From Methanobacteriota archaeon (GTDB taxonomy: Archaea > Thermoplasmatota > Poseidoniia > Poseidoniales > Thalassarchaeaceae), in NCBI GenBank assembly GCA_016845365.1, contig JAERST010000013.1, positions 124,001 through 188,000 of the forward strand: DNA of 64,000 nucleotides, written 5' to 3'. The translations under genes and the position numbers were made by a program. Positions within the stretch are counted from its first letter, which is position 1. Each line of letters opens with the position of its first letter. Under the pieces are notes generated by a model. The model saw only the letters and a program-made list of their open reading frames with translations, was not told where the DNA came from and searched no databases. Positions 2,378-28,400 of the stretch are shown piece by piece.

Positions 2378-2455
2378 GGGCGTGTAGCATAGCCTGGATA
2401 ATGCACCGGCCTCCTAAGCCGGGGACCGCGGGTTCGAATCCTGCCGCGCCCGCCA
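2378..2455 (+). tRNA. tRNA-Arg (anticodon CCT)
   Basis: Full cloverleaf: acceptor GGGCGTG pairs with CGCGCCC, D-stem GCAT/ATGC, anticodon stem CCGGC/GCCGG around loop CTCCTAA (anticodon CCT), T-stem GCGGG/CCTGC around TTCGAAT, discriminator G and encoded CCA (2453-2455). No intron. A TATA-like stretch lies near 2348-2355, about 28 bp upstream. Its 3' end is copied, once inverted and once direct, in the next 170 bp (see the element at 2476-2624). Confidence 0.95.
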
Positions 2456-2495
2456 CCTGATTTTCTTCGATTACTGGTGGCGAGCGCGTAGGATT
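2437..2495 (+). repeat. Near-perfect inverted repeat joining the tRNA-Arg 3' end to its downstream flank
   Basis: Bases 2437-2457 (T-arm 3' strand, acceptor 3' strand, CCA and two more) can pair with 2476-2495 through 19 base pairs, with one bulged C (2445), one C/A mismatch (2450/2483) and one G-U pair; the loop is 18 nt. A primary transcript running past the tRNA could form this hairpin instead of, or in competition with, the tRNA fold. Confidence 0.7.
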
Positions 2496-2624
2496 CTCAC
2501 CTCGGAACGAGATTATCTTCGCTAGATCGTTCCTTGGTCGCTTGTGAAATCAGAGATTTCACTGCGCCTTCGAACATGGGTATTTCTGGGTTGAGTTCGA
2601 AGGTCAAATCCTGCCGCGCCCGCC
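2479..2624 (+). ncRNA. Candidate structured element, four-way-junction fold, beside tRNA-Arg
   Basis: An outer stem pairs 2479-2495 with 2607-2624 (16 pairs, one bulge, one mismatch). It encloses three perfect inverted repeats in a row: 2504-2510/2527-2533 (GGAACGA, 16-nt loop), 2544-2551/2555-2562 (GTGAAATC, 3-nt loop) and 2568-2575/2595-2602 (CTTCGAAC, 19-nt loop). The 3' arm (2607-2624) is an exact 18-bp copy of the tRNA-Arg 3' end at 2437-2454. No open frame of note runs through it. It may be a small RNA, a remodelled tRNA or a miniature element with terminal inverted repeats; the sequence does not say which. Expression is unproven. Confidence 0.45.
2607..2624 (+). repeat. Direct repeat of the tRNA-Arg 3' end (possible att-site scar)
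   Basis: The 18 bases match 2437-2454 exactly, at a distance of 170 bp, and stop before the A of CCA. Integrases of archaeal and bacterial elements often leave such copies of a tRNA 3' end. No integrase gene is present nearby, so an old insertion is inference. Confidence 0.6.
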
Positions 2625-2661
2625 GATTGAATGACTGCGCTCGTTTCACGGAAAACGCGTT

Positions 2662-3801
2662 TCAGCCGAAGGCGAGTCCATGCTTTCGCCCTGAGGCTGC
2701 AGCCTTGTGGAGGAAATTCTCGAAAGGAATTCTCGCATGCATCGTGCTGCGAATCTGCGTATCGCAAACGGCGAGGTCGGCCAAAAGTTCCCGGCGCAAC
2801 TCGTCAGGAAGCGATAGGCGCCGGCCGACGAGAACATCGTGCAATTGGGCGATGAGATCGTCGGCATCGAGGCCGTGGTCATTCATCAATCGGTCGACCT
2901 CAGCCATGGCGCCTGCCAAGACCTTGGCTCGGCGCCCACGAACATTCTCCCATCTCCATTCGACGACGCGACCGCGAAGGGCGAGCTCGAGCAGATGCCG
3001 TCCAGCCTGTAGCGTCGTCGACTGCACCAGCCGGTGAACAGCCGACCTATCGGCTGCCAAACCTCTGGCACTCAACATCTCGAGGGTGAATAGCGCCTTG
3101 CGCAAATTCCCCTCGGCAACATAAGCGAGGTCGCCAAGAACTCCTTCATCGACCTCGACTTTCTCGGATTCTGCTACCGAGCGCATAGTCTCGATAACCA
3201 CCTGCTGCTCGGTCGAAGGAATCCGCACCATCCTAGTGCGTGAGCGAAGGGCATCGATGAGGCGCGAAGGCGCTCGCGCCACCAAAATGAATCGACTTGC
3301 AACGCCGACCGTCTCCATCATTCGGCGCAAGTATGCTTGCCGAATACCACCCAAATGGTCGGCGTCCTCAATCACCAATAATCGGCTAACTGGAATCCGG
3401 CCGGCTTCAATCTCAATCTCAGCCCCGGCCGGTGCCACATCACCCTCACCCGCGCGAATAATCCCACGATCGTAAGCATCCAGACTCATCCGGCCAGCAA
3501 GAGTGTCTGCCGAACCCGAACCGCCCGGCCGAAGAAATTCCTCAAATTTCGCCATCGCACCTCGGGTTCGAACTAGGTCGCGCGCCTGCAATACGTGCGT
3601 AGTCGCCTCCCACCCCGGACCCAACATCTGCCGCGCGACCAACTTCCAAGCGGCCGTTTTGCCAACCCCCGCAGGCCCCGTAATCAACAGATGCGGGGGT
3701 TCAGCCGCCAGGCTGGCTCCAACAAGCGCCTCCCGCACGCCAGCCGGCACGGCCAGAGCGTCGAAGGTACGCGGAGCGTGTGTGTTGAGCCAACTCGCCA
3801 C
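2662..3801 (-). CDS. AAA+ clamp-loader subunit, RFC small-subunit-like, divergent
   Basis: 379 residues. Walker A is GPAGVGKT (42-49), Walker B is LLVIEDADHL (141-150). Then comes AYLRRMMETVG (about 156-166), the counterpart of the 'LRRTME' segment of RFC subunits, and sensor-1 FILVARAPSRLIDALRSRTR (171-190). RFC loads the sliding clamp PCNA on primed DNA in replication. Two points differ from canonical RfcS: the conserved SRC box reads SRT here, and there is a roughly 40-residue insert between Walker A and B. The gene is last in a minus-strand run guaAA-rpoP-rfc. It may be an RFC paralogue rather than the main small subunit. Confidence 0.8.
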   Translation of the reverse strand: MASWLNTHAPRTFDALAVPAGVREALVGASLAAEPPHLLITGPAGVGKTAAWKLVARQMLGPGWEATTHVLQARDLVRTRGAMAKFEEFLRPGGSGSADTLAGRMSLDAYDRGIIRAGEGDVAPAGAEIEIEAGRIPVSRLLVIEDADHLGGIRQAYLRRMMETVGVASRFILVARAPSRLIDALRSRTRMVRIPSTEQQVVIETMRSVAESEKVEVDEGVLGDLAYVAEGNLRKALFTLEMLSARGLAADRSAVHRLVQSTTLQAGRHLLELALRGRVVEWRWENVRGRRAKVLAGAMAEVDRLMNDHGLDADDLIAQLHDVLVGRRLSLPDELRRELLADLAVCDTQIRSTMHARIPFENFLHKAAASGRKHGLAFG

Positions 3802-4931: not shown

Positions 4932-5007
4932 GCCCCGATGGTGTAGTGGCCTATCATGCAGCCCTGTCGAGGCTGCGACCCGGGTTCAAATCCCGGTCGG
5001 GGCGCCA
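4932..5007 (+). tRNA. tRNA-Asp (anticodon GTC)
   Basis: Acceptor GCCCCGA pairs with TCGGGGC; anticodon stem CAGCC/GGCTG encloses CTGTCGA (anticodon GTC); T-stem CCGGG/CCCGG encloses TTCAAAT; discriminator G and encoded CCA (5005-5007). A TATA-like GAAATAG lies about 32 bp upstream. No intron. Confidence 0.95.
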
Positions 5008-5024
5008 CAATTTGCCTACAGACG

Positions 5025-5039
5025 CGGCCGGGGCGCCAC
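5025..5039 (+). repeat. Partial copy of the tRNA-Asp 3' end (possible att-site scar)
   Basis: Bases 5025-5039 match 4994-5008 (the tRNA 3' end through CCA plus one base) at 14 of 15 positions, offset by 31 bp. The next base begins the stop codon of the AT-rich gene at 5040, so the copy marks the edge of the compositionally odd patch. Confidence 0.6.
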
Positions 5040-25421: not shown

Positions 25422-28400
25422 TCACAAAAGCGGCTTCAGATGCTTTCCAGTGTAACTTCGCTTGTTGTGAGCCACCTCTTTCGGCGTTCCTTCGGCAACG
25501 ATATCTCCGCCGTGCTCGCCGCCCTCCGGGCCAAGGTCGAGTACCCAATCGGCGCACTTTACCACGTCGAGGTGGTGTTCGATGATTATCACCGTGTGCC
25601 CATTGCGCCGCAATCTCAGCAGGACTTCGATGAGCTGATGCACGTCTGACATCGCCAATCCCGTCGTCGGCTCATCGAGAATATACACTGTGTGTTTGCG
25701 GGCGGGTCGGTGCAATTCAGTCGCCAATTTCACTCGTTGCGCCTCCCCGCCCGAGAGAGTCGTCGCTGGCTGACCAAGGCGGATGTAACCCAGCCCAACA
25801 TCTTGCAGCGTCGATAGAATTCGATGGATACTGCGCTGATTTTGGAAGAATTCGCAGGCCTCTTCCACAGGCATTTCGAGTATGTCGTGGATGGTTTTTC
25901 CGCGCCATTTGACCTCGAGGGTTTCGCGGGTGTAGCGTTTGCCTTTGCAGATGTCGCAGGTGACCCAGACGTCGGGTAGGAAGTTCATTTCGAGCTTCAT
26001 CGAGCCGGCCCCTTTGCAGGCTTCACATCGCCCTCCCTTGACGTTGAAAGAGAAGTGCCCGGGCTGGTAACCGCGTTCGCGGGCGAGCTTGGTTTCTGAG
26101 AGTAAGGTGCGGATTGGAGTGAATGCTCCCGTGTAGGTGGCTGCATTGGAGCGTGGGGTTCGACCGATTGGAGATTGGTCGATTACGATGGTTTTGTCGA
26201 TGTGTTCGATACCTTCGATTCGGTCGTGGCTTCCTGGAGTCGTGTCGGCTCCGTGTAATTCGCGCAACAGGGCTGGTGCGAGGGTTTCTGTGATTAGAGA
26301 GGATTTGCCGGAGCCGGAGACGCCTGTTACTGCGATCATGCATCCGAGTGGGATTTCTACGTCGAGGTCGCGCAGATTGTTTTGGCGGGCGCCGCGGATT
26401 GTCAGCCAGCGCTCCTCGTTGGGGCTTGCTGGGTCTTCTGGTAGTGGGATTTCGCTGCGCCCTGATAGGTATGCGGCGGTGACGCTGTCTTTGCTTGAGA
26501 GTAGGGTCTTGAGGTCGCCATTTGCTACTACTTCACCGCCGTCTCTTCCTGCTCCTATGCCCATATCGACGAGCCAATCTGCTTGGCGCAGGGTGGCCTC
26601 GTCATGCTCGACAACGAGCAGAGTGTTTCCGAGTTCTGTGAGTTCGCGGAGGGTTTCGAGGAGTCTGTCGTTGTCTCGCGGGTGGAGTCCTATTGACGGT
26701 TCGTCGAGGACATACATCACGCCTGTGAGGCGTGTGCCGATTTGGGTCGCGAGGCGTATTCGTTGCGACTCGCCGCCCGAGAGTGTGTTTGCGCGGCGGT
26801 CGAGGGTTAGGTAATCGAGGCCGACGAGCGCGAGAAATCGCAGTCTGGCCTCGATCTCTTTGATTACTTCGCGGCCGATGAAGAGGCTGCGCTCATCGAG
26901 ATGTTCGGCCGCTTCGACGATTGTTGTTGTCGGCGCCTCTCGCTCGAGGCGCGACCAAGTTTCATCGATTGTTCCGAGGCGCCAATTCTGCACCACTGCC
27001 AGCGCCTCGATGACGCTGCAAGCCGAGAAGGCTGGCAGCGTCACCCCACCAACCGTAACTCCGCTGACCGCCCGGTTGAGCTTGCGCCCATCGCATTCGG
27101 GGCAGTGCTCGTCGGTCATGTAGGAGGCAAGGCGTGAGCGTGTGCGGTCCGACGATGTCTCTGTGTAGGTTCGTCGTATGCGGGCGAATACACCCTCCCA
27201 CGGGCGAGTCATATGGTAGGCTGAGCCCTTATCGGAAGTGAATTCGAAATTGATTGCCGTGCTTCCGGTGCCGTAGAGTAGGATGTCTTTGGCGTCTTCA
27301 TCGAGGTCGCCGAATGGCGCATCCGAGGGGATGCCATAATGCTGGCAAACCTGCGTCATTTGAGTTCTGTACCAGCCCGACATCATCGATGTTCGGAACG
27401 GCCGGATGCAGCCTTCTTCGACGGTGGCGAGTCGGTCGATTACGAGGTCGGATGAGAACTCCCTCTGGACTCCGAGGCCTTGGCAGGCAGGGCAGGCGCC
27501 GAGGGGGTTGTTGAAGGAGAAAACTCGGGGGCTCACCTCGGGTAGGAATGAGCCGTGTTCTGCACAAGCGAACTCCTCGGTGTAGGCAATTGTTTCACCG
27601 ATTTGAGTCTGGAATCTCTGCTCGGTAGCCTCTTCTTTTGAATCGGCCACAGGTGCTTTGAGGCTCTCGACTGCGACGGCCCCGCCGCCCAATCGCATAC
27701 CTTCGGCGACGGCTTCGGTGAGGCGTTGTTTTGCTGTGCGGGCGAGGCGCAGTCTATCGATTCTGATGTCGATATCGTGCCTGAGGTTCTTCTCGAGGGT
27801 CGGTGGGTCTTCGAATTCTGCATCTCGCCCATTGACCTTGCCATGCAGATATCCCTGCTCGACAAGGGCGGTGAATAGATCGGCGTGAGTTCCTTTTCGA
27901 TTTCGCACCGCCGGAGACCAGATTGTTATCGCATGGCCCTCGAACCGCCAGAGGATATCATCGACGATTTCCTGGACGGTTCGCCGCGCGACTTCTTTGC
28001 CGCACTCAGGGCAGTGCGGCAGGCCCACTCGCGCCCACAATAGCCGCAGATAATCCATGATCTCAGTGACCGTCGCGACCGTAGAGCGTGGGTTGTGGCT
28101 GCCTTGTTTCTGGTCGATGCTAATCGCAGGAGAGAGGCCTTCGATGCTATCGCAATCTGGCTTCTTCATCTGTCCTAGGAACTGCCGCGCGTACGAGGAG
28201 AGCGATTCGACATAGCGGCGCTGACCTTCTGCGTATAGCGTATCGAAGGCAAGGCTGGATTTTCCGCTGCCTGAGACGCCTGAGATGACGACGAATTTTC
28301 CGCGCGGAATCTCCACATCGATATCGCGCAGATTGTGGGTGCGTGCGCCTTTGACGACTATCCAACCATCGTCGGCGGCGCCGTTCTTCTTCCACCCAGC

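Follow-up and report, generated by a model that had tools for sequence, protein, structure and literature searches.

Background

Transfer RNA genes are a main docking site for mobile DNA, and inverted or direct tRNA fragments lying behind them matter for archaeal tRNA annotation and for the reading of integration sites. Several described systems come close to the locus studied here. SSV1 has a direct repeat of 44 bp at tRNA-Arg, as quoted in PMC3293823. Casposons are reported to leave their target tRNA 3' ends unaltered, to duplicate the target and to occur in tandem copies, and the targets of five euryarchaeal casposons overlap only 4-7 nt of the tRNA (PMC4046053). Charybdis elements, a comparable but different case, integrate beside Poseidoniales tRNAs (PMC12324425). 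About half of the tRNA genes of Methanopyrus have a palindrome a short way behind them (PMC5217627). Finally, template switching has been reported to create and perfect hairpins, with compensatory double changes (PMC8794818). The known families do not explain how short, gene-less elements settle at tRNA genes and stay matched to their hosts. A search of the openly accessible literature found no earlier description of such units.

The window, that is, the whole stretch of 64,000 nt analysed here, comes from a Ca. Poseidoniales MAG (G000). The genomes compared are MAGs, one per species; G016 and G009 belong to the same genus as G000. Behind the tRNA-Arg(CCT) gene of the window lies one member of what we regard, with moderate confidence, as a family of selfish, non-autonomous insertion elements, protein-less and about 110-180 bp long, that sit exactly at the 3' ends of Thermoplasmatota tRNA genes. 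A unit consists, in order, of a linker (L), an inverted copy of the tRNA end (S'), the core hairpins and a second tRNA end in direct orientation (S2).

Results

The unit behind tRNA-Arg(CCT)

The locus spans positions 2378-2690 of the window, and all its features are given on the + strand. The tRNA-Arg(CCT) gene occupies 2378..2455 with its CCA encoded (ARAGORN; Rfam RF00005, 63.8 bits). Its last ~22 nt, from the T-loop to CCA (2434-2455), are the stretch copied by the unit and are called S1. The linker L follows with 20 nt (2456..2475); it forms the loop of a fold-back hairpin S1-L-S', and linkers of similar length are found in other copies. S' (2476..2501) repeats the 3' end and T-arm of the tRNA in inverted orientation. 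From 2476 on, GGTGGCGAGCGCG is paired to CGCGCCCGCCACC at 12/13 positions, and after a gap of 1 nt AGGATTCTCACC stands against GGTTCGAATCCT at 10/12. S2 (2604..2624) repeats, in direct orientation, the tRNA 3' end beginning at the T-loop; it reads TCAAATCCTGCCGCGCCCGCC and is identical to tRNA positions 2434-2454 at 20 of 21 sites. The tRNA-Arg 3' end is therefore present three times, in the tRNA, inverted and direct, as the preliminary description had it. The direct repeats are 170 bp apart with the hairpin core between them. Behind S2 comes the original trailer of the tRNA (2625..2690), and comparable sequence stands directly behind the tRNA in relatives, where the site is empty. Note that S2 has CAAATCCTG where the tRNA has CGAATCCTG (CAAATCC versus CGAATCC). 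The core's own right end thus extends into the T-loop, and the junction lies within AATCCTG.

Between S' and S2 there are three hairpins. Hairpin B (2499..2538) has the stem GGAACGA/TCGTTCC (2504-2510/2527-2533), extended outward by ACC/GGT, and hairpin C (2539..2566) has the stem GTGAAATC/GATTTCAC (2544-2551/2555-2562), extended outward by CGC/GCG; both are predicted by folding and covary between copies. Hairpin D (2567..2603), with the stem CCTTCGAAC/GTTCGAAGG (2567-2575/2595-2603), is likewise predicted by folding, and a comparison of the copies shows that no other segment of the core is as well conserved (TTCGAACAT...AGTTCGAAGG). Three perfect hairpins of 7, 8 and 8 bp had been described at first; all three are real, but the third has 9 bp. 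With the ACC/GGT and CGC/GCG extensions the arms join nearly without unpaired bases, which makes a four-way junction. The predicted fold of 2470-2632 has an energy of -63.6 kcal/mol (z -4.24 versus dinucleotide shuffles), and 0 of 200 shuffles folded as well. When the tRNA and the unit are folded jointly (2370-2680), S' is paired to the tRNA in the minimum-energy structure, not to S2. The models thus allow both of the alternative pairings proposed for S', with S2 in the fold of the unit and with the tRNA in the joint fold.

Two further tRNA calls of the window may be mentioned here. The gene of tRNA-Asp(GTC) at 4932-5007 is followed, 17 nt on, by CGGCCGGGGCGCCA (5025-5038), a near copy of its own 3' end with one mismatch, which may be what is left of such a unit; the Asp tRNA of G016 carries a unit like those of class C (see below). 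The tRNA-Ser(GGA) called by ARAGORN at 26141-26225 stays below the Rfam tRNA threshold and is probably a false call.

Related copies and empty sites

Homologues of the core, called class A, were searched with a covariance model built from four class A copies. Six cores were found in G000, each directly behind a tRNA gene: Arg-CCT (the window), Arg-TCT, Pro-GGG, Pro-TGG, Ile-GAT and Arg-TCG. In 6/6 copies S2 repeats the 3' end of the tRNA behind which the copy lies, and S' repeats the same end in inverted form. A truncated second unit lies behind Arg-TCG and Arg-TCT. The regularity of the locus, which had been judged unlikely by chance, is borne out by these five homologues in the same genome and their covarying helices, and the copies away from tRNA-Arg that had been proposed as a check exist behind two Pro tRNAs and one Ile tRNA. 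Which tRNAs are occupied? G000 has 8 tRNAs with the T-stem AATCCTG, and 6 of them carry a class A core (hypergeometric about 5e-6).

Outside G000 the class A core was not seen. A DNA search gave further copies of the window unit only in G000, and both this search and that with the core covariance model returned short copies only. Compensatory changes, for which a covariance search had been suggested at the outset, are present between the G000 copies. The core itself was found by the covariance model in 0 of 318 other Poseidoniales genomes, with filters that are stricter above 40 genomes. Among 97 genomes searched with the motif TTCGRAC..ATGTYYGAA, five matches fall at tRNA-linked units of G000 and one in G016 (Arg-GCG); the remaining matches, one or two per other genome, are read as background.

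Relatives have an ordinary trailer directly behind tRNA-Arg(CCT) and no unit (loci L002-L020). The sequence CAGCCGAAGGC, located ~40 nt behind S2 in the window, is comparably close behind the tRNA itself in G016 (L009), and the unit is absent from Arg-TCT, Pro-GGG and Pro-TGG of G016. These empty sites indicate that the unit is an insertion between tRNA end and trailer that doubles the tRNA end. Of the early guesses, a tRNA-derived miniature element with terminal inverted repeats comes closest: the copies behind six tRNAs, the empty sites and the duplicated tRNA end agree with it, but the terminal arms are not fixed repeats and are matched to each host tRNA instead.

Own-tRNA copies across genomes

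How general are such copies in the genome? The tRNA-specific acceptor end was used as probe and the downstream regions of other tRNAs as control, for all tRNAs of G000 and parts of those of G016 and G009. An own inverted acceptor copy lies within 70 nt of 14 of the 43 G000 tRNAs (0.3 expected), and an own direct copy within 220 nt of 18 of the 43 (1.0 expected). The corresponding numbers are 4/38 inverted and 4/38 direct in G016, and 0/26 and 1/26 in G009. Two other classes of core could be distinguished, class B at Leu, Ser, Pro and Gln tRNAs of several genera and class C at Gly and Arg-GCG tRNAs. Some loci are fold-back hairpins S1-L-S' without S2, or are decayed, and decayed copies are common. 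Related units also occur in the named records Candidatus Poseidoniales archaeon UWMA-0357 and Euryarchaeota archaeon UBA58.

Another repeat is also dispersed among the tRNA trailers. It is a G+C-rich hairpin, GAGCTGTCGCGCTC..GAGCGCGAC, behind many G000 tRNAs or their S2 copies (L051, L055, L064, L083 and L087, at Thr, Val, Ser and Gln tRNAs), which is also present in G016 and forms a cluster of eight. At tRNA-Gly CCC of G000 (L067), tandem repeats with CCCACGTTCAATCGATGTGG..GTCGAGGTTCACGAGCGCGAGCGAGTGAAT stand behind the tRNA and behind its second 3' end copy.

The same layout with unrelated core sequences was found in other Poseidoniales and in other Thermoplasmatota families, by searching for an inverted T-arm pattern and then reading the units. 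Because convergent tRNA pairs and stretches of coding sequence match this pattern too, the matches per genome give upper limits, and units were counted only after each had been read. S2 usually begins in or beside the T-loop and ends at the tRNA 3' end. Units also occur in tandem, two or three in a row, for example at Glu-CTC of G366 and Arg-CCG of G345. In G366 and G388 one core family stands behind Arg, Ser, Ala, Leu, Glu, Lys and Val tRNAs, with an S' that spans the T-arm and is fitted to each T-stem. The distribution is bursty, with many units in few genomes and none in most relatives, and it is patchy even within a genus. In Thermoplasmatota family f16 a conserved GGAGAAACTTGCCATGGGACTAAAAAATGATTTGAAC lies behind tRNA-Leu in several genomes (L339-L342); these loci have the inverted T-arm only, and no second tRNA end was seen in them.

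Pairing at the DNA or the RNA level

Among the pair cells of class A, 169/180 are Watson-Crick, 2 are GU and 3 are AC. By helix, a copy's own arms are 86-100% Watson-Crick, while arms swapped between copies reach 56-89%. In a core family independent of class A, 14 of 35 pairs show double changes that preserve pairing, and single-side changes are rare. Over 52 units the sense and antisense folds are equally stable (27 versus 25, Wilcoxon p 0.39), and GU pairs make up 4.9% on the sense and 5.4% on the antisense strand. A sense RNA under selection would be expected to pass through GU intermediates on its own strand; since few are found, the pairing looks as if it were kept at the DNA level and not as a sense RNA, which the lack of strand bias also suggests. 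An Rfam search gave tRNA matches only, with no other family reaching the gathering threshold. Two proposals of the preliminary description, a new small RNA and a switch competing with tRNA folding, find no support here. Both are disfavoured by the missing strand bias in fold energy and GU content, by the near absence of GU intermediates, by a distribution that is patchy even within a genus and by the lack of an Rfam match.

Enzymes and carriers

Is there an enzyme that could mobilise the units? Reverse transcriptase (RVT_1) was found in 0 of 15 genomes, with the positive controls detected; on this ground a retroelement with a tRNA primer, whose primer-binding site S' resembles, was rejected. 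Proteins with the tyrosine recombinase domain PF00589 are present in 15/15 genomes tested. Extra tyrosine recombinases were found in the unit-rich G000, G063, G224 and G225, and none extra in G016, G087, G227, G228 and G048, which are likewise rich in units. Two accessory genes of this type in G000 (L329 and L331, contigs C10 and C4) end, close to the ends of their contigs, beside the tRNA-Ala(TGC) and tRNA-Tyr(GTA) 3' ends and are probably integrated mobile elements; similar genes lie at tRNA-Ala or tRNA-Glu in G063, G224 and G225. No unit stands beside the tRNA-adjacent PF00589 genes in these four genomes, and they were not regarded as the mobilising enzyme. As for viral carriers, 82 viral contigs have the inverted T-arm pattern, and in none of them does a tRNA stand in front of an inverted copy of its own end; no viral contig contains the exact class A motif.

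Discussion

The units lie at a precise location, duplicate the tRNA end and carry host-specific arms. One core is dispersed over several tRNAs, tandem arrays are formed, the helices covary and the distribution is patchy. How might such units arise? On the reading as insertion elements, a unit would enter at the T-arm or 3' end, leaving the tRNA intact (S1) and giving it a second 3' end (S2). Entry at this place is suggested by the empty sites, the duplication and the tandem units. S' would arise as, or be held to, the reverse complement of the host tRNA end; in the simplest case S1 might be copied by fold-back (template switching) when the unit inserts or later. With S' and S2 complementary, the unit could fold as a rod or a multi-way junction on either DNA strand, and the lack of strand bias points to DNA rather than RNA as the substrate. 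Units would spread between tRNAs with a common T-stem sequence, arrays may grow by recombination between S copies, and units would then decay. The mover may be an enzyme acting on the T-arm in trans, such as a tyrosine recombinase or a transposase-like integrase.

Some observations speak against this scheme. It is hard to see how a fixed enzyme would give each copy different, tRNA-matched arms unless by template switching, and the S1-L-S' hairpins without S2 could arise from template switching alone. Moreover, the accessory recombinases do not track the units across the unit-rich genomes, and none has a unit beside it.

Could there then be no dedicated element at all? Template switching would make S', slippage and gene conversion between T-arms would spread the cores, quasi-palindrome correction would perfect the arms, and the units would be mutational by-products. 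Watson-Crick double changes with hardly any GU intermediates are the outcome reported for template switching (PMC8794818), and the hairpins that lack S2, the cores that follow the T-stem sequence and the absence of strand bias all fit. However, the layout, with S2 running from the T-loop to the exact 3' end and with two or three hairpins, recurs in families with unrelated cores, and plain mutation would be expected to give a more even distribution than the bursty one observed. We consider this explanation unlikely, though it is the best of the rivals.

Another possibility, clearly less probable than the former, is that the units are integron-like, gene-less cassettes. Here S'-core-S2 would fold as a single strand into an attC-like site and recombine with the tRNA T-arm, which would play the part of attI. 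The folded S':S2 would restore a double-stranded T-arm, structure is kept over variable sequence, tandem arrays have S2 as the unit boundary, and S2 starts in or beside the T-loop. Against this, the units have no genes, their arms are tRNA-specific far beyond a recombinase core, and no integron integrase was identified by the PF00589 count, which at 15/15 genomes does not discriminate. Least probable is a functional RNA, in which the tRNA transcript would run through the unit and S' would pair with the tRNA 3' end or with S2 as a maturation switch or a separate structured RNA: both pairings are strong in the models and the helices covary, but neither energy nor GU content prefers the sense strand, no sampled relative that has the same tRNA carries the class A core, decayed copies are common and no Rfam family fits.

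A wider suggestion can be put forward tentatively, with less confidence than the reading as insertion elements: that the units are a phylum-wide class of DNA elements, mobile or forming arrays, whose chemistry of recombination or insertion copies the target. Each new unit would take the reverse complement of the tRNA 3' end in front of it as its outer arm; the element would then fold into a rod matched to its target, and the tRNA end would be duplicated. To our knowledge, no transposon, integron or retroelement renews its arms by copying the target. Re-templating of the arms from the target would represent a new mode of adaptation of an element to its site; were the arms instead products of template switching, these loci would offer a natural set of cases of quasi-palindrome correction in which the tRNA serves as the fixed reference.

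How do the units compare with known systems? Quasi-palindrome or template-switch mutations share with them the perfected inverted repeats and the double changes, but do not alone disperse a conserved core of ~100 nt among tRNA genes. The Methanopyrus palindrome differs in being a common motif of ~18 bp instead of a copy of the own tRNA, with no direct second copy described. Integron attC sites and cassette arrays are similar in that structure is kept over variable sequence, as in the hairpin folds of the units, in that arrays are anchored at one site, and in that a folded single strand could form the recombination site; unlike integrons, the units have tRNA-specific arms and no gene cassettes, the integrase being compared by PF00589 count only. 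Casposons likewise are archaeal, use tRNA 3' ends and show a duplicated target and tandem copies, but the units lack fixed terminal inverted repeats, their duplicated stretch is the part of the tRNA from T-loop to 3' end, and an element of <200 bp does not hold the cas1 and polB that a casposon carries inside. MITEs are also short, non-coding and dispersed with inverted outer arms, and dispersed related copies and empty sites are found for the units as well. In place of the fixed terminal inverted repeats common to all copies of a MITE, however, the outer arms of the units copy the target and match the host tRNA, and all copies found are at tRNA 3' ends. The archaeal integrative elements of SSV-type or pNOB8-type tyrosine recombinases agree with the units in the tRNA 3' end as site, the tRNA left whole and the direct repeat at the far border; a distal direct repeat of the tRNA 3' end is present in 6/6 class A copies and in many further units. 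They differ in that the units are <200 bp and gene-less, with a hairpin core instead of integrase and cargo between the repeats (the PF00589 genes of G000 lie elsewhere), in that the units contain an inverted copy of the tRNA end, and in that related units occupy tRNAs of different sequence with arms matching each. As a small insertion element at tRNA genes, the unit varies a known kind, while its target-copied arms, if confirmed, would be a new one.
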